From Nitratidesulfovibrio sp. (GTDB lineage: Bacteria > Desulfobacterota > Desulfovibrionia > Desulfovibrionales > Desulfovibrionaceae), in contig NZ_JBDXXH010000010.1 of assembly GCF_040373385.1 (NCBI RefSeq), forward strand, positions 106,623 to 170,622: 64,000 bases of DNA. The letters run 5' to 3'. Each line of letters begins with the position of its first letter. Positions within the stretch are counted from its first letter, which is position 1. Position numbers and translations under genes: made by a program. The notes below the pieces were generated by a model. The model was given only the letters and a program-made list of their open reading frames with translations, searched no databases and was not told where the DNA came from. This document shows positions 3,438 through 19,864 of this stretch, in pieces.

Positions 3438-3887
3438 ATGTTGTTCAGAGGCCGTTCCCACCGCAGTCTCGACCCCAAGGGCCGACTGATGCTGCCGCCG
3501 GATTTCCGCGACATCCTCGTGTCGCGTGCCGACGGTGGCAAGCTGGTGCTGACCAGCTTCGACGACTGCGTCATGGGCTACCCCCTGCCCGACTGGGAAG
3601 ACTTCGAGCGCAAGTTCTCGAACCTGAAGAACCCTTCGCGCAAGATGCGCGACTTCCGCCGCCTGGTCATCGGCAGTGCCGAACTCATGGACCTGGACGG
3701 GCAGGGGCGGGTGCGCATCTCGCGTTCGCACATGGACTACGCGGGCATCACCAAGGACGTGGTGTTGCTGGGCCAGGGCAGTCGCTTCGAAATCTGGGAC
3801 CAGGGCCGCTTCGACGGCATCGTGGCGCAGGACTTCGACGACGTGGCCGCAGAGCTTGCCGACAGTGGCATCGAACTTTCCCTTTAG
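3438..3887 (+). CDS. mraZ: Transcriptional regulator MraZ
   Basis: MraZ is the AbrB/SpoVT-fold DNA-binding protein that heads the division and cell-wall cluster and autoregulates it. The protein is 149 aa, the usual size, and carries both repeated DxxxR signatures: DPKGRL near residue 12 and DGQGRV near residue 87, one in each swapped-hairpin domain. It begins [16 protein letters not shown], typical of the family. The upstream direct repeats at 3280-3305 match its expected operator. It lies 42 bp before rsmH and is the first gene of the rightward dcw run. Confidence 0.95.
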
Positions 3888-5313: not shown

Positions 5314-7428
5314 ATGCTGCGAGCAGACAGGAAGTCACGCATACTCGGCAGGCCCGCGCCGCGCACCGCACGCGACGCGCGTCCCTCTTTCGAGGCGCGC
5401 GCCCCCCGTGCCGCACGCGCCCTGCGCAACAAGAAGGCCCCCGGTTCGTCGTTCGCAGGCGGGCCGCGCTTCAATCCCTTTGCCCGCTACGGCGAGGCGG
5501 ACTGGAGCAAGGTGCGCCTGTACGGCGTGGGCTGCGTGTTCGCGCTGCTGTGGGTGCTGTTGTGGTCGCGCGCCTGGTACGTGCAGGTGTACGACGGCGA
5601 CCGGCTGGCCGGTCTTGCCCGCCGCCAGCACATGGCGGCGGAGACCGTGTCCGGCAGGCGCGGGGCCATCCTTGACCGCAACGGGCAGATTCTGGCCCGC
5701 AGTGTCGAGGTGCGCTCCGTCTACGTTCGCCCCGGCGAGATCCACGACGTGGATGCCACGGTCAATGCCCTGGTCACGGCGCTGGAAGCCCCGGCCAAAC
5801 AGGTGCGCGAGGCCGTGGCCTCCAAGCGCGGTTTTGCGTGGGTGGCCCGCAAGGTGGACGACCAGGCCGCCGAAAACGTGCGCAAGGCCGGGCTGCCCGG
5901 CGTGTACCTGAGCAGCGAGTACGAACGCATTTATCCGTTCAAGCAGATGGCCGGGCAGTTGCTCGGTTTCGTGGGCATGGAGAGCAAGGGCCTTGAAGGC
6001 CTGGAACTGACCTTCGAGGATGTGCTGAGCGGCGATTCCGCCCGCAACGTGGTGCAGCGCGATGCCGCCGGGCGTCGGCTGGACATGGATGGCGGCGCTG
6101 GCCGCGCGTCCCTGCGTGGCCACGACGTGCATCTGACCATCGATACCCAGGTGCAGTTCTTTGCCGAAGAAGCCTTGGCCCGCTCGGTGGACCAGTTCGA
6201 CGCCACGTGGGGCGGTTGTCTGGTGGTGGACGTGGATTCGGGCGACATCCTGGCCTGGGCGCAGTACCCGTTCTTCAACCCCAACGCCTATCGCGACTAC
6301 AAGCCCGAACGCTGGCGCAACCGCCTTGCCGCCGACGCGCTGGAGCCCGGTTCCACGCTGAAGCCGTTTCTGGTGGCCGCCGCCCTTCAGGAGGGCGTGG
6401 TCAAGGGCGACACCACGTTCAACTGCGAAAAGGGCCGCTGGAAGACCCGCTACATCACCATCCGCGATACGCACAGCTACGACGTGCTGCCGGTGAACAA
6501 GGTGCTGCGCTACTCCAGCAACATCGGCATGGCCAAGATAGGCCTGGAGCTGGGGTCCAAGCGTTACTGGGAATACCTGAACCAGTTGGGCTTCGGCGAC
6601 CGTACCGGCCTGCCCATCACCGAGAGCAAGGGCATCCTGCGTGATCCGCGCCACTGGTCCGAACCGGACCTGATCACCACCTCCTTCGGCCAGTCCATCG
6701 CCGCCACCGGTGTGCAGATGGCCCAGGCCTACCTGACCCTGGCCAACGGCGGTGAACGCAAGCCGCTGCGCCTGGTGGTGGACGACGAAGCCCCGGCCAA
6801 CTCGGCCAGCCAGAAGGTGTACAACGACAAGACGGTGAAGCAGGTCATCTCCATGCTGCGCGAAGTGGTGGAGGAAGACGGCACCGGCACCCGCGCGCGC
6901 ATCCCCGGCATCATGGTGGGCGGCAAGACAGGCACCGCGCAGAAGGCTGACGAAACGGGGCGTTACGGTCACGAACGGCTTGCTTCGTTCGTGGGTTTCG
7001 CGCCCATCGACAAGCCCAAGTACCTGATTTTGGTCATGGTGGACGAACCCCAGAAAAATTCGTACGGCGGCGTGGTCGCAGCGCCCGTGTTCAAGCACGT
7101 GGCCATGCGCACCATGGCCTACCATGGCCTGCTGCCCGATGCGCCCGACCCGGAGGCCCCCACCTACGCCACGCCCCTCGGCAAGACCGGCCCGGTGGAA
7201 GTGCGCCGCGAGGTGGCCGAGGCCGTGCGCGAGGCACCTGACGGGGTGCCCAACGTGGTGGGCAAGTCGGTGCGCCGGGCCGTGGAAGTGTTTGCCCGGC
7301 AAGGCATGGTGCCCGTGCTCAGGGGCGCCGGGCAGACCGTGATCCGCCAGACCCCGGAACCGGGCACCGAATGGCCCAAGGGGCAGCCCACGGGACAGTG
7401 CGTCCTTTGGCTTTCCGAGAATTCCTAG
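5314..7428 (+). CDS. ftsI: Penicillin-binding protein, division transpeptidase FtsI with PASTA domain
   Basis: FtsI is the septal peptidoglycan transpeptidase. The order in the 704-aa protein is: a basic cytoplasmic tail of about 65 residues, one membrane anchor (VFALLWVLLW near 70-85), the dimerisation domain, the transpeptidase domain, and a C-terminal PASTA repeat (about 645-704, GVPNVVGKSVRRAVEVFARQ). The catalytic motifs are STLK (serine near residue 346), YSSN near 400 and KTGTAQ near 537. A PASTA domain is common in Gram-positive PBPs and also in this lineage, but absent from E. coli FtsI. The N-terminal tail is arginine-rich and longer than usual, so a later start is possible. It lies 14 bp after ftsL and 12 bp before murE. 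Confidence 0.93.
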   Translation: MLRADRKSRILGRPAPRTARDARPSFEARAPRAARALRNKKAPGSSFAGGPRFNPFARYGEADWSKVRLYGVGCVFALLWVLLWSRAWYVQVYDGDRLAGLARRQHMAAETVSGRRGAILDRNGQILARSVEVRSVYVRPGEIHDVDATVNALVTALEAPAKQVREAVASKRGFAWVARKVDDQAAENVRKAGLPGVYLSSEYERIYPFKQMAGQLLGFVGMESKGLEGLELTFEDVLSGDSARNVVQRDAAGRRLDMDGGAGRASLRGHDVHLTIDTQVQFFAEEALARSVDQFDATWGGCLVVDVDSGDILAWAQYPFFNPNAYRDYKPERWRNRLAADALEPGSTLKPFLVAAALQEGVVKGDTTFNCEKGRWKTRYITIRDTHSYDVLPVNKVLRYSSNIGMAKIGLELGSKRYWEYLNQLGFGDRTGLPITESKGILRDPRHWSEPDLITTSFGQSIAATGVQMAQAYLTLANGGERKPLRLVVDDEAPANSASQKVYNDKTVKQVISMLREVVEEDGTGTRARIPGIMVGGKTGTAQKADETGRYGHERLASFVGFAPIDKPKYLILVMVDEPQKNSYGGVVAAPVFKHVAMRTMAYHGLLPDAPDPEAPTYATPLGKTGPVEVRREVAEAVREAPDGVPNVVGKSVRRAVEVFARQGMVPVLRGAGQTVIRQTPEPGTEWPKGQPTGQCVLWLSENS

Positions 7429-7440
7429 GAGCATCGGCAG

Positions 7441-8925
7441 ATGACCCGTATATCTTTTGATGACCTTCTGGCCCGTGTCCGCCAGAACACGCCGGACATT
7501 CGTACCGACTCGCGCAGGGTGGGCCGTGGCGACGTGTTCGTGGCCGTGCCCGGCGTTGCCGCCAACGGCGGCGCGGGCGTGGATGGCGCGGACTTCATTG
7601 CCAAGGCATGGGCCGCCGGGGCCGGGGCGGTGGTGTGCCTGCCCGGGCGGGTGGACGCGGCCCTTGCCGATGCGCCCGCAGGCTGCGTGGTGGTCGGGCA
7701 CGAAGACCCGCGCGCGGCCATCGGCCTGCTGGGTCAGGCCCGCTACGGCACCGATGCGCTGCCCTTCCCGGTGGTGGCCGTTACCGGCACCAACGGCAAG
7801 ACCACCATCACCTATCTGCTGGAACACGTATTTTCCGCGCTGGGGCGCCGGGCAGGCGTGCTGGGCACCGTCAGCTACCGTTGGCCGGGGTTCGTCATGG
7901 ACGCCCCCCTGACCACCCCCGACTGCATCGAGACCCACGCCATGCTGGCCCGCATGCGCGACGCCGGGGTGGACGTGGCGCTGATGGAGGTCTCGTCGCA
8001 CGCGCTGGACCAGCGCCGGGCGGCGGGCATTCGCTTTGCCGGGGCCATCCTGACCAACCTGACGCAGGACCATCTGGACTACCACGGCGACATGGAACAC
8101 TACTATGCCGCCAAGGCCCGCCTGTTCACCGAACTGCCCGACGCGGACAAGGCCTGCGCCGTCAATGCCGACGACGCCTGGGGCCGCCGCCTGCTGGGCG
8201 AGGTGCCGCACGCCATCGGCTTCGGGCTCAATGCGGCCAATGCCGTTCCGGGCCGCAGGTACCTGCACGGCGAAATGGTCCACAACGCCACCTCGGGCCT
8301 CACGCTGCGCATGACCCATGAAGGGCGGCAGTGGGAACTTTCCTCGCACCTCGTCGGCGCGCACAACGCCTCCAACCTGCTGGCCGTGCAGGCCGTGTGC
8401 CTGGGCATGGGGCTTGCCCCGGAAGACCTGGCCAGCCTGGCCGACTTCACCGGCGTGCCGGGGCGGCTGGAGCGCATCGTGAACCCGCGGGGGCTGGACA
8501 TTTTCGTTGATTACGCACATACCCCCGACGCGCTGGAAAACGTGCTGCGCGCGCTGCGTGCGGTGGGCTTTTCGCGCATCGTTACCGTGTTCGGCTGCGG
8601 CGGCAACCGCGACCGCACCAAGCGCCCGTTGATGGGGCAGGCGGTGGCGCGTCATGCCGACGTGGCCGTGCTCACGTCCGACAATCCCCGTCACGAAGAC
8701 CCAGAGGCCATCATGGCCGACGTGCTGCCCGGCCTTGCCGACGCGCGCGAGGTGGTCAGCGACCCCGACCGGGCACGGGCCATCGGCAAGGCCCTTGCGC
8801 TGCTGCGGCCCGGCGACGTGCTGCTGGTGGCGGGCAAGGGGCATGAAAGTTACCAGCAGATCGGCGACCGCAAGGTGCCGTACAGCGACCAGCAGGTCAT
8901 TCGGGAGATATTGGGGTGCAACTGA
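7441..8925 (+). CDS. murE: UDP-MurNAc-tripeptide synthetase MurE (diaminopimelate-adding)
   Basis: MurE adds the third stem residue to UDP-MurNAc-L-Ala-D-Glu. The 494-aa protein contains the substrate loop TDSRRVGRGDVFVA, the ATP loop VTGTNGKTTITYLL (near residue 115), the EVSSHALDQRR motif, the carbamylated-lysine region HGDMEHYYAAKARLF, and DNPRHEDP near residue 413. The DNPR motif is diagnostic for meso-diaminopimelate rather than lysine. ATP-binding FGCGGNRDRTKRPLMG is intact. A short open frame starts at the ATG overlapping its stop (8925). In related clusters murF follows immediately; here it does not. Confidence 0.95.
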   Translation: MTRISFDDLLARVRQNTPDIRTDSRRVGRGDVFVAVPGVAANGGAGVDGADFIAKAWAAGAGAVVCLPGRVDAALADAPAGCVVVGHEDPRAAIGLLGQARYGTDALPFPVVAVTGTNGKTTITYLLEHVFSALGRRAGVLGTVSYRWPGFVMDAPLTTPDCIETHAMLARMRDAGVDVALMEVSSHALDQRRAAGIRFAGAILTNLTQDHLDYHGDMEHYYAAKARLFTELPDADKACAVNADDAWGRRLLGEVPHAIGFGLNAANAVPGRRYLHGEMVHNATSGLTLRMTHEGRQWELSSHLVGAHNASNLLAVQAVCLGMGLAPEDLASLADFTGVPGRLERIVNPRGLDIFVDYAHTPDALENVLRALRAVGFSRIVTVFGCGGNRDRTKRPLMGQAVARHADVAVLTSDNPRHEDPEAIMADVLPGLADAREVVSDPDRARAIGKALALLRPGDVLLVAGKGHESYQQIGDRKVPYSDQQVIREILGCN

Positions 8926-9092
8926 TGTCCATCGCCGCGTGCCACACCGCGCGGGTCCGCGCCGTACCCGGCGGGTCCGGTTCCTCCGCGCACACCGGGT
9001 CGTTCCCGTGCGCGGCCGCTGGCGCACGCACCGCCAGTCAGCCGGAAACTTGCCAGGCCGACCACACCACCGGGGGGCGCCATGCTGTATAA
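8925..9092 (+). pseudogene. 55-codon open frame at the expected murF position (possible deletion scar)
   Basis: An ATG overlaps the murE stop codon (TGATG), as a translationally coupled downstream gene would. The frame runs 55 codons and ends at a TAA inside the mraY start. The translation is low complexity ([17 protein letters not shown] and onward) and shows none of the MurF motifs; neither of the other two frames does either. It could be the remains of murF after an internal deletion, or simply a spacer. The 156-bp interval is far too short for murF, which is about 1.4 kb. Confidence 0.35.
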
Positions 9093-10158
9093 CCTGCTGT
9101 ACCCCCTCAGTTCCGAATTCACGGTCCTCAACGTCTTCCGCTACATCACCTTCCGCTCCGTGTGGGCGCTGCTGACGGCGCTGCTGCTGTCCATCCTCAT
9201 GGGGCCGCGCTTCATCGAGTGGCTGCGGCGCGTCAAGTGCGGGCAGCACATCCACGAGGACGTCACCTGCCACATGCAGAAGGCGGGCACCCCCACCATG
9301 GGCGGCCTGCTCATCGCCTTCTGCCTGACGTGCAGCGTGCTGCTGTGGGCCGACCTGACCAACAAGTACGTCTGGCTGACCATGCTCATCTTCCTGGGGT
9401 TCGGGCTGGTCGGGTTTCTGGACGACTACATCAAGATCCGCCGCCGCAACAACAAGGGGCTGTCCGCCCGCGCCAAGTTTCTGGGGCAGGTGGTGGTGGC
9501 GGCCGTGGCCATGTACCTGCTGGTCAGCGAGCCGGTGTACTCCACCCGGTTGGCCTTTCCGTTCTTCAAGGGCCTCGCGCCCGACCTCGGCTGGCTGTAC
9601 ATCCCCTTCGCGGTGACGGTGATGGTGGGTTCTTCCAACGGGGTGAACCTTACCGACGGACTGGACGGCCTGGCCATCGGCCCCACCATCATCGCGGGCA
9701 TGGTCTTTGCCGTGTTCATCTACGTGGCGGGCAACGTGCAGATGGCCACCTACCTGCAAGTGCCCAACATGCCGGGCGTGGGTGAGGTTACCGTGTTCTG
9801 CGGCGCGCTGGTGGGCGCGAGCCTGGGCTTTCTGTGGTTCAACGCCTACCCGGCCCAGGTGTTCATGGGCGATGTGGGCTCGCTGGCCCTTGGCGGCGCG
9901 CTGGGTTTTCTGGCCGTGCTGTGCAAGCAGGAACTGCTGCTGCTCATCGTGGGCGGGCTGTTCGTGGTGGAGACCCTGTCGGTGATCCTGCAGGTGGGCT
10001 ACTTCAAGTTCACCGGGGGCAAGCGCATCTTCCGCATGGCCCCGCTGCATCATCACTTCGAATTGCAGGGCATTCCCGAGTCGAAGATCATCATCAGGTT
10101 CTGGATCATGTCGGCGCTGCTAGGATTGATGGCGCTGTCGGTCCTGAAGCTGCGTTAG
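9082..10158 (+). CDS. mraY: Phospho-N-acetylmuramoyl-pentapeptide-transferase MraY
   Basis: MraY transfers phospho-MurNAc-pentapeptide to undecaprenyl phosphate to form lipid I at the inner membrane. The 358-aa polytopic protein has about ten transmembrane segments. It carries the family signatures PTMGG near residue 73, the aspartate pair in [16 protein letters not shown], the catalytic [13 protein letters not shown] near residue 190, GNA-type loop [12 protein letters not shown], and the C-terminal [15 protein letters not shown] precedes the ATG. It follows the murE gap and lies 15 bp before murD. Confidence 0.96.
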
Positions 10159-10173
10159 GACAAGGATACGGCA

Positions 10174-11511
10174 ATGACCTGCGACAAGCACACGGCGCGG
10201 ACCATCGGCAAGGGCGACCTTGTGGTGGTCGTGGGCGCGGGCCGCTCCGGCATGGCTGCCGCGCGGTTGCTGCACCGCATGGGGGCGCGCGTGCGCCTGC
10301 TGGAACGCAACGCCGACGGGGTGCCGGCCGACTTCCTGCGCTGGGCCGCCGAAGCCGGTGTGGAAATTGCCACCGGCGACCATTCGCCCGCCCAGTTTGC
10401 GGGTGCGCGGGCCGTGGTGCCCAGCCCCGGCATGGCCGTGGCAAAGCTGCGCCCGCTGTTGCCGCAGGGGCCGGGCGCGCCCGAGGTGCTGGCCGAAATG
10501 GAGCTTGCCTGGCGGCAACTGGACGGCGAGCCGGTGCTGGCCGTCACCGGAACCAGCGGCAAGACCACCACGGTTTCGCTGTGCGCCGCCATGCTGCGGG
10601 CGCAGGGCCTTGCCGTGTTCCTGGGCGGCAACATCGGCACTCCCCTCAGCGAGTACGTGTTGTCCGTAGCGCATGGCGGGGCAGAAGGGCAGGGCAGGGC
10701 CGACGCACTGGTCATAGAGATTTCCAGCTTCCAGTTGCAGGCCTGCACCACCTTTCGTCCTCGCGTGGCCATGCTGCTGAACATCAGCGAGAACCACCTC
10801 GACTACCACGCCGACATGGCGGAATACATCGCCGCCAAGTTCCGGCTGTTCCGTTGCATGGAAGAAGGCGACCTGGCCATTTTCGGCGAAGGGCTGCGCG
10901 ACCTGGTGGCCGCGCGCGAACCCAGGGCGCGCACGCTGTTCTTCAACGCGGCATCCAGGCGCTTTCCGCACACCCGCCTGCTGGGCGGGCACAACCAGGC
11001 CAACATCGAGGCCGCATGGCAGGCCTGCCGCGAGTTCGGGGTGACCCCGGAGGCGGCGGAAAAGGCCGTGGCCGACTTTGCCCCGCTGGAGCACCGGCTG
11101 GAGGCCGTGGCCGAGCGCAACGGCGTGCTGTGGGTGAACGATTCCAAGTGCACCACGGTGGAGGCTCTGCGCGTGGCCCTGCTAGCCTTTGACAGGCCGG
11201 TGGTGCTGATGGTGGGCGGCAAGTTCAAGGGCGGCGACCTTGCGTCCCTGCTGCCGCTCATGCTCGGGCGAGTGCGGGCAGTGGTGGGCTTTGGCGCCAG
11301 CCGCGAATATTTCAAGGGGGCCTGGATGGGGCAGGGTGAGTTTTCCATGTCCTGGCATCCTGCCCTGGAACCCGCCGTGGCCGAGGCCGCCGAGGTTGCC
11401 CGACCGGGCGATGCGGTGGTGATGGCCCCGGCCACCTCCAGTTTCGACCTCTTTGCCAACTACAAGGAGCGCGGCCACGCTTTTCGCCGCGCGGTGGAGG
11501 CCCTGCCATGA
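10174..11511 (+). CDS. murD: UDP-N-acetylmuramoylalanine-D-glutamate ligase MurD
   Basis: MurD adds D-glutamate to UDP-MurNAc-L-Ala. The 445-aa protein begins with a Rossmann fold (VVVVGAGRSGMAAARLLHRMG), followed by the ATP-binding VTGTSGKTTTVSL near residue 120, GGNIGTPLSEYV, EISSFQLQ, NISENHLDYHADM with the carbamylated-lysine region after it, and the C-terminal VNDSKCTTVEA and GGKFKGGDL. A short insertion after GTPLSEYVLS (AHGGAEGQGRAD) is unusual but lies in a loop. Its stop overlaps the ftsW start (ATGA at 11508). Confidence 0.95.
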   Translation: MTCDKHTARTIGKGDLVVVVGAGRSGMAAARLLHRMGARVRLLERNADGVPADFLRWAAEAGVEIATGDHSPAQFAGARAVVPSPGMAVAKLRPLLPQGPGAPEVLAEMELAWRQLDGEPVLAVTGTSGKTTTVSLCAAMLRAQGLAVFLGGNIGTPLSEYVLSVAHGGAEGQGRADALVIEISSFQLQACTTFRPRVAMLLNISENHLDYHADMAEYIAAKFRLFRCMEEGDLAIFGEGLRDLVAAREPRARTLFFNAASRRFPHTRLLGGHNQANIEAAWQACREFGVTPEAAEKAVADFAPLEHRLEAVAERNGVLWVNDSKCTTVEALRVALLAFDRPVVLMVGGKFKGGDLASLLPLMLGRVRAVVGFGASREYFKGAWMGQGEFSMSWHPALEPAVAEAAEVARPGDAVVMAPATSSFDLFANYKERGHAFRRAVEALP

Positions 11512-14113: not shown

Positions 14114-15481
14114 ATGAATAACAACAAGATCAAGAAAATACACATGGTCGGCATCGGCGGTTCCGGCATGAGCGGCATTGCCGAGGTGCTGTTGAACCTG
14201 GGCTACGAGGTGCGCGGCTCGGACATGTCCGACGGCACGGTGGTGCGCCGTTTGCGCAAGCTGGGGGCCGAAATCTACATCGGCCACGGCGAGGGCAACC
14301 TGACGGACGCCCAGGTGCTGGTGAAGTCCACGGCCATTGGCGACGAGAACCCCGAGGTGGCGGCGGCGCGCAGGCGCGGCATTCCCATCATTCCGCGCGC
14401 CGAGATGCTGGCGGAACTGATGCGCCTGCGCACGGGCATCGCCATCGCAGGCACGCACGGCAAGACCACCACCACCTCGCTGGCGGCGGCCATCTTCGAC
14501 GAGGCGGGCACCGACCCCACAGTGATCATCGGCGGGCGGCTGAATGCCTACGGCGCCAACGCGCGGCTGGGCGACGGGGCCTACCTCATTGCAGAGGCGG
14601 ACGAATCGGACGGCTCGTTCCTGTGCCTGTTCCCCATCGTCACCGTGGTCACCAACGTGGACATGGACCACATGGACCACTACCCCTCGCAGCAGGCCAT
14701 CGACGATGCCTTCGTGGATTTCATGAACAAGGTGCCGTTCTACGGCATGAACGTGGTCTGCGGCGACGACCCCGGCGTGCGGCGCCTGCTGCCCCGGGTG
14801 AAGCGTCCGGTCATCACCTACGGCTTCGGAGATGGCAACGCCATCCGGGCAGAGGTGCTGGCCTGCGCGGACACCAGCCTGTTCAACGTCATCGTCAACG
14901 GCGACGACATCGGTCAGGTGCGCCTCGCCCAGCCGGGCCGCCACAACATCCTGAATGCCCTGGCCGCCATCGGCGTGGCGCTGGAATGCGACATCGCGCC
15001 CGGAAAGATCGTGGCGGGCCTGGCCAAGTTCGGCGGGGTGGGGCGGCGCTTCGAGCGCAAGGGCGAGCGCGACGGCGTGCTGGTGGTGGACGACTACGGG
15101 CACCACCCGGCGGAAATCGCGGCTACCCTGGCCACGGCGCGCCAGTGCTTTCCGCACCGGCGGCTGGTGGTGGTGTTCCAGCCGCACCGGTTCAGCCGCA
15201 CGCAGGCCCTGTTCGGCGAATTCTGCAAGGTGTTCGACGGCGTGGACAAGCTGCTGCTGACGGAAATCTACCCCGCGTCGGAAAAGCCCATCCCCGGCGT
15301 GAGCGGGCAAAGCCTTGCCCAGGGCATCCGCCAGGTATCCAAGACCGACGTGACCTATCATCAGGATTTTGATTCCGTGCTGGCGGCATTGCCCGAAGTG
15401 CTGCAACCCGGCGACCTCTTGCTGACGCTGGGCGCGGGCAACGTGACCACCATCGGCCCCCGTTACCTGGAAAGGGAATAG
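14114..15481 (+). CDS. murC: UDP-N-acetylmuramate-L-alanine ligase MurC
   Basis: MurC adds L-alanine to UDP-MurNAc, the first stem-peptide step. The 455-aa protein shows the Rossmann motif [17 protein letters not shown], the ATP loop [17 protein letters not shown] near residue 115, [31 protein letters not shown] and the C-terminal GAGNVTTIG. The ATG at 14114 has no recognisable ribosome binding site, because the upstream 30 bp are A-rich. The next ATG (14141) has none either. This start lies 60 bp past the inverted-repeat element, so transcription may need a local promoter. Confidence 0.95.
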
Positions 15482-15482
15482 C

Positions 15483-16403
15483 ATGCTCACGGTTCTCGAC
15501 GGCCCCGTGCTTGCGCACCGCACCACGCTCCGCCTTGGCGGCAGGGCGCTGGCAGAGGTGCGCGCGGCCGGGCCGCGTGAACTGGACGAACTGCCCGGAA
15601 CGCTGGCCCGCCTGGGCGGTGAGCCGCGCATGCTGGGCTGCGGCAGCAACATCCTTGCCGACGACGGCGAACTGCCCGTGGTGGTGGTGGCGCTGGATGG
15701 CGGCGGCCCCTTCGACACCGCGCCGGAAGTGACCGGCGAGACGGAGGACGGTCGCGTGCTGGTGCGCGTGGGCGCGGCGCAGCGGCTGCCGCGCCTGGTA
15801 TCGCGCCTGGCCGCGTGGGGCCTGTGCGGCATGGAAGGTCTGGCTGGCATTCCCGGCGGGGTGGGCGGCGCGGTGGCCATGAATGCCGGGTCCTACGGGT
15901 GCGAATGCGGCGCCGCGCTGCATTCCGTATCCGTGTTTTCCCCCCTGCTGGGCCATGTGACCCTGGGGCGCGACAGGTTCCGGTACGGGTATCGGCATTT
16001 CGAGGTGCTGGACGAGGCTAGCGCGCCGCTGGGCGGCTGGTACCTGGTCACCGGGGCCACCTTTGCCCTGACGCGGTGCGACAGTGCCGTGGTGCATGCC
16101 GCCATGCGCGGCAATTACCTGAAGAAGAAAGCGACGCAGCCGGTGCTGTCACACAGTGCGGGTTGTGTATTCCGCAATCCGTCACCGCACAATCCGGCGG
16201 GCAAGCTGCTGGACGCAGCAGGGCTTAAGGGATACCGCATTGGTGGCATGGCATTTTCGATGGTGCATGCCAATTTCATGGTTAACGAAGGCCACGGCAC
16301 TACAAAAGAGGCTTTCAGTTTATTGCAGTTTGCAAAAGTTGCCGTGAGTGAACGTTTTGATGTTGACCTTGAACTTGAAGTGAAGGTCTGGTCATGGCGA
16401 TAG
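15483..16403 (+). CDS. murB: UDP-N-acetylenolpyruvoylglucosamine reductase MurB
   Basis: MurB is the FAD enzyme that reduces UDP-GlcNAc-enolpyruvate to UDP-MurNAc. The 306-aa protein has the FAD-binding GCGSNILADDG, GLAGIPGGVGGAVAMNAGSYG, the active-site SAGCVFRNP (cysteine where E. coli has the proton-donor serine, a known variant), and GLKGYRIGGMAFSMVHANFMVN near the end. The ATG follows the murC stop by one base. The last 130 bp of the gene are markedly AT-richer than its start. Its stop overlaps the ftsQ start by 10 bp. Confidence 0.93.
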   Translation: MLTVLDGPVLAHRTTLRLGGRALAEVRAAGPRELDELPGTLARLGGEPRMLGCGSNILADDGELPVVVVALDGGGPFDTAPEVTGETEDGRVLVRVGAAQRLPRLVSRLAAWGLCGMEGLAGIPGGVGGAVAMNAGSYGCECGAALHSVSVFSPLLGHVTLGRDRFRYGYRHFEVLDEASAPLGGWYLVTGATFALTRCDSAVVHAAMRGNYLKKKATQPVLSHSAGCVFRNPSPHNPAGKLLDAAGLKGYRIGGMAFSMVHANFMVNEGHGTTKEAFSLLQFAKVAVSERFDVDLELEVKVWSWR

Positions 16404-17233
16404 CGTTATCGCGCGGAAAGAAAGGCGCGAAGAATGCGTACAGCAGAAAAAGCGTGAAGCCGCAGAAGGCCACGCTGAATTCCGGCAACGGGATGCTGTC
16501 GTTCGCCAGATGGTTCTTCACCATGGTCTTGTCCGTCTCTTTGCTTGTCGGCATAAGCGTAGGTTTGTTGTACATCTACAGGTATGCGACAAGGTCTGAA
16601 TATTTTGCAGTCAAAACTATTGAAGTCTCGGGCAATTTGAGGTTAAGACAGGAGGAAATCCTGGGGTTGGCGGGCATTGCCCCCGGCGCGAACAGTCTTG
16701 CGGTGAACATCGCGGATATGGAGTCGGGGCTGCTGCGCAACCCGTGGATTACGGAAGTATCCGTAAAAAGGTTGCTTCCTGACGGATTTGCGATAAAAGT
16801 CGCTGAACGGGAACCGAAGTTCTGGGTACAGCGCGGCGCAGAGCTGCTCTACGCCGACGAACACGGCAACATTATCGCCCCGGTGGGGGCGGGCCGGTTC
16901 ACCTCGCTGCCCACGCTGGAAGTTGAAGCAGGGGCCGAGGAAGCGCTGGAGCGACTGCCCGAGATAACCGGCGACCTGAAGCGGGCAAGGCTGCCCGTGG
17001 ATATCGCCCTGGTTTCGTGGGTGCGCCTGAGCCCCGGCAAGGGCGTGGAGCTGTATCTGGAAAACAGCGACCTGCGGCTCAGCGTTGCGCTGGAAGACTG
17101 GCGCGGCAACCTCGACAGGCTGGGTAAGGTGCTCGACGACCTTGCCCGTCGGGGTGAACTGAAGCAGGTGCGCGAGGTGAAGGCGGGGGGCGTCAACGTC
17201 TGGGTACAGAAGGACGCCGCCCTCGGCGGCTGA
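16394..17233 (+). CDS. ftsQ: Cell-division protein FtsQ
   Basis: FtsQ is a bitopic inner-membrane protein that recruits FtsL/FtsB and later septal proteins. The 279-aa protein has a basic cytoplasmic tail of about 40 residues, one transmembrane segment (FFTMVLSVSLLVGISVGLLYIY, about 41-62) and a POTRA domain (VKTIEVSGNLRLRQEEILGLAGI to VKRLLPDGFAIKVAEREP). A beta domain follows (LLYADEHGNIIAP onward). The 5' half uses more A/T-ending codons than its neighbours. The gene overlaps murB and lies 70 bp before ftsA. Confidence 0.9.
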   Translation: MAIALSRGKKGAKNAYSRKSVKPQKATLNSGNGMLSFARWFFTMVLSVSLLVGISVGLLYIYRYATRSEYFAVKTIEVSGNLRLRQEEILGLAGIAPGANSLAVNIADMESGLLRNPWITEVSVKRLLPDGFAIKVAEREPKFWVQRGAELLYADEHGNIIAPVGAGRFTSLPTLEVEAGAEEALERLPEITGDLKRARLPVDIALVSWVRLSPGKGVELYLENSDLRLSVALEDWRGNLDRLGKVLDDLARRGELKQVREVKAGGVNVWVQKDAALGG

Positions 17234-17303: not shown

Positions 17304-18530
17304 ATGCCCAAGTCGGATCTGATTGTCGGCCTTGATATCGGTACCACCAAAATCTGCGCGGTCGTGGGTGAAGCCACGCCCGACGGAGTCGATATCGTCG
17401 GCATCGGCACCAGTCCCTCCACCGGCCTGCGCAAGGGCGTGGTGGTCAACATCGAGCAGACCGTCCAGTCCATCAAGAAAGCTCTCGAAGAAGCCGAGCT
17501 GATGGCTGGCTGCGAAATCCGTTCGGTCTATGCGGGTATCGCGGGCAGCCACATCAAGGGCTTCAACAGTCATGGCGTCATCGCCGTAAAAGGCGGCGAG
17601 GTGGGCCCCAAAGACGTCGAACGCGCGCTGGACGCGGCGAAAGCCGTGGCCATTCCGCTGGACCGCGAGGTCATCCACATCCTTCCGCAGGAATACATCG
17701 TGGACGACCAGCGCGGCATTGCCGATCCCCTCGGCATGGCGGGCGTGCGGCTGGAGGTCAAGGTGCACATCGTGACGGGCGCCGTGACGTCCGCCCAGAA
17801 CATCGTGCGTTCCTGCCACAGGAGCGGGCTCGACGTGTCGGACATCGTGCTCGAGGCGCTGGCCTCCAGCAAGGCCGTGCTGACCGAGGAAGAGAGGGAG
17901 ATTGGCGTCGCCCTCGTCGACCTTGGCGGCGGCACCACCGACATCGCCGTGTTCTCCAACGATTCCATCAAGCACACGGGCGTGCTTGCGCTGGGCGGAC
18001 AGAACCTGACCAACGACATCGCGTTCGGGTTGCGCACCCCCATGGTTTCGGCCGAAAAGATCAAGGTCAAGTATGGCTGCGCCATGGCCGACCTTGTGCG
18101 CAACGACGACCTCATCGAGGTGCCGAGCGTGGGCGGGCGCGATCCGCGCCGCCTGTCGCGCCAGGTGCTTGCCGAAATCTGCGAACCCCGCATGGAGGAG
18201 ATCCTGTCGCTGGTGGATCAGGAACTCGTCCGCTCCGGCTTCAAGAACATGATCGGAGCGGGCGTGGTGCTGACCGGCGGGACGGCCCTCATCGACGGGT
18301 GCCAGGAGCTTGGCGAGCAGATTTTCAACATGCCTACCCGCATCGGCTACCCCCGGAATGTGGGCGGGCTGCGTGACGTGGTGAACAGCCCGAAGTTCGC
18401 CACCGCCGTGGGGCTTTTGCGCTACGGCGCGGAAAAGGAGGGCCTTGAACTCAAGTTCCGCATCCGCGACGGAAACGTGTTCAACCGCGTGCTGTCGCGC
18501 ATGCGCAAATGGTTCTCCGACATCTCGTAA
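17304..18530 (+). CDS. ftsA: Cell-division protein FtsA
   Basis: FtsA is the actin-like ATPase that tethers FtsZ to the membrane. The 408-aa protein has phosphate loop 1 [17 protein letters not shown], phosphate loop 2 [13 protein letters not shown] near residue 205, the adenosine motif [14 protein letters not shown], and the C-terminal amphipathic tail [13 protein letters not shown], which matches the membrane-targeting helix. An AACAGGAGTAG ribosome binding site precedes the ATG. ftsZ starts 44 bp downstream. Confidence 0.95.
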
Positions 18531-18574
18531 ACCGCGGGTCCAACGGAATCAGCCAGTCGGACAAGGAGAGGCGT

Positions 18575-19864
18575 ATGGAATTTCACGAGATCGATGCCGA
18601 AAGCACTGCGAAGATAAAGGTCATCGGCGTCGGCGGCGGTGGCGGCAACGCTGTCCAGAACATGATATCCTCTGCGCTGAAGGGCGTTACCTTCATCGCG
18701 GCGAACACCGATATCCAGGCCCTCAGCCGGTCTTCCGCCGAACTCAAGATCCAGCTCGGCGACAAGCTGACCAAGGGCCTTGGCGCGGGCGCCAACCCCG
18801 GCATCGGCCGCGATGCCGCCCTTGAAAGCATGAGCGCCATCAAGGATGCCATCGGCGAGGCCGACATGGTCTTCGTTACCGCAGGCATGGGCGGCGGCAC
18901 CGGTACCGGCGCGGCCCCCGTCATCGCGCAGGCCGCCAAGGAAATGGGCGCGCTGACCGTGGGCGTGGTCACCAAGCCGTTCTTTTTCGAAGGCAAGAAG
19001 CGCCTGGAAGCCGCGGAACAGGGCATTTCCGAATTCCGCGAGCATGTGGACAGCCTGATCACCATCCCCAACGACCGCCTGCTTTCCCTGGCCCCCAAGA
19101 AGGCCACCTTCGTGGAAATGCTGAAGAAGGCGGATGAAGTGCTGTACTTCGCGGTGAAGGGCATTTCCGACCTGATCATGGTGCCCGGCCTCATCAACCT
19201 CGACTTCGCGGACGTGAAGGCGGTGATGGGCGAATCGGGTCTGGCCATGATGGGCGCGGGCATCGCACGCGGCGAATCGCGCGCCCGCGAGGCCGCCATG
19301 AAGGCCATCACCAGCCCGCTGCTGGAAGACGTGTCCATCGACGGCGCGCGCGGCGTGCTCATGAACATCACCTGCGGCCCCGACCTGACCATTGATGAAG
19401 TCAGCGAAGCCGCCGGGATCATCCAGGAAGCCGCACACGAAGACGCGCGCATCTTCTTCGGCACCGTGTTCGACGACACGGCGGGCGAGGAAATGCGCAT
19501 CACCGTCATTGCCACCGGCATCGACGCGGACATGGTGGGCATTGAAGGCGCCGGCAAGTCGGGCACCGTCACCCCGTTCCGCAAGGGCGGGTCCATGGGG
19601 CAGGCCCAGCCCGCACCCCGTTCCGCCGCGCAGCCGCGTGCCGAGCAGGTGCAGCAGGCCAAGCCCGCTCCCCAGTCCATGCAGCCGCGCGGCATGGGCG
19701 GCTTCTCTGACGACGACCGCAACATTCCCGCCTACCTGCGCAAGCAGGGCCAGGCGCAGCCCACGGTGAACCGTGCCAATACCCACGCCCCCGGCGAAGA
19801 AGACTTCATCTTCGACGAGGACGAGTTCGAGATTCCGTCCTTCATCCGCAAGCAGGCGGACTAG
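18575..19864 (+). CDS. ftsZ: Cell-division protein FtsZ
   Basis: FtsZ is the tubulin-like GTPase forming the division ring. The ATG at 18575 is preceded by AAGGAGAGG and gives 429 aa; an upstream in-frame ATG at 18509 overlaps ftsA and lacks a binding site. Key motifs are [13 protein letters not shown] near residue 16, NTDIQAL, the GTP signature [10 protein letters not shown] near residue 105, and NDRLL followed by the T7 loop [12 protein letters not shown] 50-residue glutamine/proline-rich linker precedes the C-terminal peptide [14 protein letters not shown], which binds FtsA. It is the last gene of the dcw run. Confidence 0.97.

Follow-up and report, generated by a model that had tools for sequence, protein, structure and literature searches.

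We analysed a 64,000-nucleotide stretch (the window) of contig C10 of Nitratidesulfovibrio sp. (NCBI RefSeq assembly GCF_040373385.1; 4.2 megabases (Mb), 18 contigs, 99.88% complete), which carries a division and cell wall (dcw) gene cluster running from mraZ to ftsZ (Table 1). Eleven dcw genes score above the cut-off of their own model (mraZ, rsmH, murE, mraY, murD, ftsW, murG, murB, murC, ftsA and ftsZ), yet murF is missing between murE and mraY: as the original prediction, made from the sequence of the window, had claimed, these genes are separated by 156 base pairs (bp), and the MurF profile TIGR01143 finds no match in any of the six frames of this interval. Its further claim of a cluster complete but for murF has limits: the ftsI frame has strong FtsI/PBP2-type matches which nevertheless stay under those models' cut-offs, ddl is likewise missing from its usual dcw place, a point the prediction does not raise, and the frame at the ftsQ position (16394-17233) has no NCBIfam match at E <= 1e-20.

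The murE-mraY junction in relatives

Same-family genomes place murF exactly where it had been expected. Of ten such genomes listed, nine were fetched (the fragmented G010 was left out), and in all nine a MurF-like frame of 474-498 amino acids (aa), measured from stop to stop, fills the gap, so that the absence of murF here is not a matter of chance. Within the genus (eight genomes), the junction is readable in five, namely this genome, G001, G004, G005 and G007; in the other three, murE is cut by a contig end (G003), a fragment (G002) or without a match (G006). All five readable junctions lack murF, with spacers of 156, 213, 189, 108 and 132 bp, respectively. The genome is a draft, and the original prediction had allowed for an assembly error that collapsed or lost murF. 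However, four other genus assemblies share the short junction without murF, one of them (G007) a single 4.26-Mb contig, and no MurF of canonical score occurs anywhere in the genome, which leaves an assembly error with next to no probability; the junction also lies well inside its contig, away from the ends. Consequently, murF is truly absent from the dcw cluster, here and in every genus genome in which the junction can be read.

The spacer contains the predicted 55-codon frame, which opens at an ATG at 8925 overlapping the murE TGA and whose stop (9090-9092) overlaps the mraY start. Across the genus genomes compared, the ends of the spacer are conserved and its middle is not; its length is divisible by 3 in all five, and the reading frame linking the murE stop with the mraY start stays open, in the same phase, throughout, with the ATG present in four and missing in G005. 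The frame is unlike a protein gene, since its guanine-plus-cytosine (GC) content at the three codon positions is 72/72/84, where murE has 74/48/87. The suggestion that it is the leftover of a coupled murF is therefore not borne out, as it has no MurF similarity, a gene-unlike codon composition and an unconserved middle, even though its phase is kept in all five genomes. The frame is likewise unlikely to be a working small gene or to form a bridge carrying ribosomes from murE to mraY after the loss of murF. Spacer lengths that are all multiples of three, with a frame that is always open, favour such a role; but a shared phase has a probability of some 1 in 81 even for independent genomes, and these are related, the codon-position composition departs from that of murE, no conserved protein is encoded and one genome lacks the ATG. 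A role of the spacer in coupling the translation of murE and mraY is possible, if weakly supported. On the opposite strand, a 1573-aa open frame (5335-10056, minus strand) runs antisense across ftsI, murE and mraY, and most probably arises simply from the high GC content.

A membrane-embedded MurF-like ligase and its cassette

Scanning all six frames of the entire assembly with TIGR01143 (curated cut-off 288.6 bits) found no canonical murF elsewhere. The best match, at 181.5 bits, is a 544-aa protein on contig C1, the one Mur ligase found in the genome beyond MurE, MurD and MurC, for which we coin the name mMurF (membrane-embedded MurF-like ligase). The genome-wide search that had been proposed thus did yield a MurF-type ligase, albeit one below the cut-off and without the uridine diphosphate (UDP)-binding domain. 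In both NCBIfam and PDB the best family for mMurF is MurF, not MurT. The TIGR01143 match starts at model position 68, and mMurF keeps the Walker A GKT/S, the catalytic Glu and His, HNxxN, an Arg and DDxYNxN, the motif for D-alanyl-D-alanine (D-Ala-D-Ala); these are invariant or nearly so in 78 sequences, and they align with 1gg4 and 4cvk. No PF01225 domain was detected in mMurF by a model that also misses MurE of the same genome. The predicted membrane domain has no convincing PDB match, and its polar residues Q27, Y31, K97, K98, T103, R105, R108 and E160 are invariant or nearly invariant. Copies in four other genus genomes are 94-96% identical. For a control we took the 197 genomes of the phylum that are at least 90% complete (this one included); 191 of them numerically exceed the MurF cut-off, and the six that do not include this genome and G086. 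Separately, no FolC-type protein was seen in this genome with PF08245 at E <= 0.001, while G001, G002 and G003 gave weak matches of about 20 bits; the missing match is probably a limit of sensitivity.

That a MurF-like gene exists on another contig might suggest that canonical murF has merely moved. Such a relocation is, however, very improbable: mMurF scores 181.5 against the required 288.6 bits, it has a hydrophobic helical domain in place of the N-terminal, UDP-binding Mur_ligase domain, and in the tree described below it sits within a mostly alphaproteobacterial clade, its separation from nine same-family MurFs having a Shimodaira-Hasegawa-like approximate likelihood ratio test (SH-aLRT) support of 100. 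Judged by its defining features, mMurF is no canonical MurF but a distinct subfamily, which appears to do the work of one.

The gene for mMurF follows ddl and an alpha/beta hydrolase gene on the same strand, its start overlapping the end of the hydrolase gene. This ddl is the only clear one in the genome; two weaker PF07478 matches, in frames of 1234 and 438 aa, are probably other ATP-grasp enzymes. The cassette Ddl is found in all seven other genus genomes at 92-97% identity, while among 13 other members of the family or order it has no match in eight (E <= 1e-8) and a partial one, at 31-37%, in five. Among 80 mMurF loci listed, the hydrolase gene is present in 77, ddl in 70 and both in 70.

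Distribution, origin and the fate of the old murF

A scan of the phylum (297 genomes) gave 94 matches to mMurF at E <= 1e-28, of which only those in this genome and in G086 reach the membrane domain; the G086 protein is 38% identical over positions 7-539, and its gene order is hydrolase, mMurF, ddl. Scanning of named genomes found at least 80 mMurF loci in several phyla. Among the matches listed, the closest outside the genus are from Alphaproteobacteria (Marivibrio halodurans, 54%), followed by Clostridia (including Lachnospiraceae), Bacillales, Bacteroidota, Acidobacteriota and Nitrospirota; identity to the alphaproteobacterial-type loci is 42-54% over the full length, membrane domain included. 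We screened 83 mMurF carriers with TIGR01143 (48 at E <= 1e-25 and 35 at E <= 1e-30; among the 80 loci only the genome of L096 was left out), accepting as a second MurF any match that reached 200 bits and spanned almost the entire profile. No second full-profile MurF was found in 79 of the 83. The matches of 110-126 bits that cover most of the MurF profile in G336, G339 and G401 are MurE, G341 has a decayed frame (below), and by length and score the remaining secondary matches look MurE-, MurD- or MurC-like.

In a quick IQ-TREE search of 92 sequences, midpoint-rooted and with composition warnings that include the genus rows, the genus mMurF is placed within a clade whose record titles are mostly alphaproteobacterial (SH-aLRT 99 and 95), the exceptions being four Micavibrio records labelled Bdellovibrionota by NCBI and one titled Acidimicrobiales. 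Given this nesting, the cassette was probably acquired horizontally, and the simplest reading is a horizontal gain followed by loss of murF and of the old Ddl. The G086 mMurF groups with an Acidobacteria sequence (SH-aLRT 98) and is apparently a separate event.

The junctions of other carriers present a similar picture. We surveyed 20 genomes, namely G086 and 19 whose mMurF is of the alphaproteobacterial type; murE was located in 18, and in none of these is it followed by an intact canonical murF. Four have a short murE-mraY gap (G334, 143 bp; G086, 54 bp; G333, 57 bp; G342, 152 bp), and three have decayed MurF-like frames after murE: in G331 (L178), a 447-aa frame with an N-domain match of 30 bits, no P-loop and PF08245 below its cut-off; in G340 (L181), a frame of about 240 aa, cut by the end of the stretch, with 26 bits and no P-loop; and in G341 (L184), a frame fused to MurE and also cut, which keeps the P-loop and, as read from its translation, has lost HN and DDxYNxN. 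In both G340 and G341, mraY lies outside the stretch. Marivibrio halodurans (G326, L175:2847-3656) has between murE and mraY a frame of about 270 aa with no MurF-profile or Pfam assignment. In a further ten alphaproteobacterial-type mMurF genomes the murF site holds a conserved frame, about 150 aa long, that shares homology with the tail of the decayed G331 frame but not detectably with the MurF C-domain; the two examples examined have no Pfam match. Taken together, these junction patterns look like repeated loss of murF after its replacement.

Table 1 Features of the dcw cluster (window coordinates) and of related loci elsewhere
Feature	Position	Strand	Basis or remark
mraZ, start of dcw cluster	3438..3887	+	TIGR00242, 112.5 bits
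ftsI-type D,D-transpeptidase	5314..7428	+	by best matches, under the models' cut-offs
murE, immediately before the gap	7441..8925	+	TIGR01085, 468.2 bits
55-codon open frame, murE stop to mraY start	8925..9092	+	no MurF similarity found
spacer, 156 bp, site of murF in same-family genomes	8926..9081		junction comparison
mraY, first gene past the gap	9082..10158	+	TIGR00445, 419.4 bits
murD	10174..11511	+	TIGR01087, 338.8 bits
murC	14114..15481	+	TIGR01082, 535.5 bits
ftsZ, end of dcw cluster	18509..19864	+	TIGR00065, 412.7 bits
cassette: ddl, alpha/beta hydrolase, mMurF	contig C1, ~468871-473048	minus	profile and neighbourhood analysis
alpha/beta hydrolase gene	L034:9499-10596	minus	overlaps mMurF
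Bacteroidota loci with both MurF types	L113, L114, L125, L131		genomes G345, G346, G365, G376
~150-aa frame	L174, L176, L177, L179, L182, L183, L185, L187, L188, L189		murE-mraY gaps

Proposed function and comparison with known systems

Ddl joins two D-alanines, and MurF, in an essential step of cell-wall synthesis, links the dipeptide to the N-acetylmuramic acid (MurNAc)-tripeptide in a reaction dependent on adenosine triphosphate (ATP). As ftsI-type D,D-transpeptidases require pentapeptide donors, D-Ala-D-Ala must be added somewhere. We consider, with a probability of about 0.87, that murF is truly absent and that a foreign ddl/hydrolase/mMurF cassette now carries out this step, with mMurF as a MurF acting at the membrane. 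Among the explanations offered by the original prediction, replacement by another ligase is the one supported, through the homology of mMurF, the conserved make-up of the cassette, the near-absence of canonical MurF from mMurF carriers and the tree; a MurF-type activity of mMurF is itself inferred. The cassette Ddl would make D-Ala-D-Ala; close to MraY, on the inner side of the membrane, mMurF would use ATP to join it to the MurNAc-tripeptide. The native murF and native Ddl would have become redundant and then been lost.

Several observations weigh against this reading. The best NCBIfam model for the mMurF protein is MurF, yet its 182.4 bits lie under the cut-off, the UDP-binding N-domain is replaced by a helical, hydrophobic domain of about 175 residues, and the C-terminal motif is ENDLPD, unlike the KGS-type ending of canonical MurF. 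Among the 80 loci listed, 10 showed no ddl next to mMurF and 3 no hydrolase; some of these misses fall on short stretches, and both genes are missing at L113, L141 and L157. The sister relationship of the genus to Marivibrio has an SH-aLRT of only 90, in a quick search with composition warnings. Finally, four of the 83 carriers screened, all Bacteroidota, have a full-profile second match, in frames of 838-852 aa; in G346 this is a confirmed MurF-Alr fusion (NF008897, 1062 bits), and G345, G365 and G376 are given the same label from the length of the frame and its coverage of the profile. With both types present, mMurF need not be the sole MurF everywhere; such genomes may be at a transitional stage, or the two enzymes may share the work. 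The four genomes also lend something to the idea that mMurF does another job (another polymer, recycling or resistance), with the pentapeptide made by another ligase or tripeptide stems sufficing. We regard this as improbable, however, because no further Mur ligase was found in the genome, the cassette holds its sole clear ddl, the dcw cluster retains an ftsI-type transpeptidase, and 79 of 83 carriers are without an additional full-profile MurF.

If mMurF does replace MurF, the order of precursor assembly may also have changed, such that MraY loads UDP-MurNAc-tripeptide onto the carrier lipid and mMurF then adds D-Ala-D-Ala to the lipid-linked tripeptide. We advance this only tentatively, by analogy, given the lack of a UDP-binding domain, the presence of a membrane domain and the precedent of MurT (see below); the pyrophosphate might then be held by the eight conserved polar residues of the membrane domain. 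Alternatively, a tethered mMurF may still use UDP-MurNAc-tripeptide. Should the acceptor prove lipid-linked, precursor assembly would not follow the accepted order in all bacteria. More broadly, a polytopic membrane MurF that lacks the UDP-binding domain would stand in for MurF in many Clostridia, some Alphaproteobacteria and these sulfate reducers. Inhibitors and models that rely on the UDP-binding pocket may then not apply to these bacteria, and a 'missing murF' becomes a testable prediction.

Textbook MurF is a soluble enzyme that performs the last cytoplasmic step and is a drug target. mMurF shares with canonical MurF (TIGR01143; PDB 1gg4, 4cvm, 3zl8) the central ATPase and C-terminal ligase domains, the catalytic residues and DDxYNxN, and differs in its helical domain in place of the UDP-binding one, its score below the cut-off, its other C-terminal motif and its location outside the dcw cluster of the genus. 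The cassette recalls a cluster of Campylobacter jejuni in which the same three kinds of gene lie close together, a likeness in gene grouping; the same murF/hydrolase/ddl grouping occurs in Helicobacter. In one report, the C. jejuni MurF Cj0795c, hydrolase Cj0796c and Ddl Cj0798c are neighbours, and its authors could not delete the hydrolase gene and thought it might be essential (PMC5530802); another lists cj0795c and cj0798c as essential by flux-balance analysis only (PMC3229698). Another parallel is MurT of Staphylococcus aureus (MurT/GatD, the lipid II isoglutaminyl synthase). This enzyme, too, is without the UDP-binding domain; it amidates lipid I and lipid II, not soluble UDP-linked precursors, and the authors of its structure argue that a UDP-binding domain would likely clash with the membrane (PMC6113224, PMC6085368). 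However, MurT amidates D-Glu together with GatD, whereas mMurF carries the catalytic motifs of MurF and a membrane domain, and its gene usually has ddl as a neighbour. Lastly, the MurF-Alr fusion of Bacteroidota (NF008897) is likewise a MurF in a non-standard layout, but one in which a full MurF part is fused to alanine racemase, and it co-occurs with mMurF in 4 of the 83 carriers.
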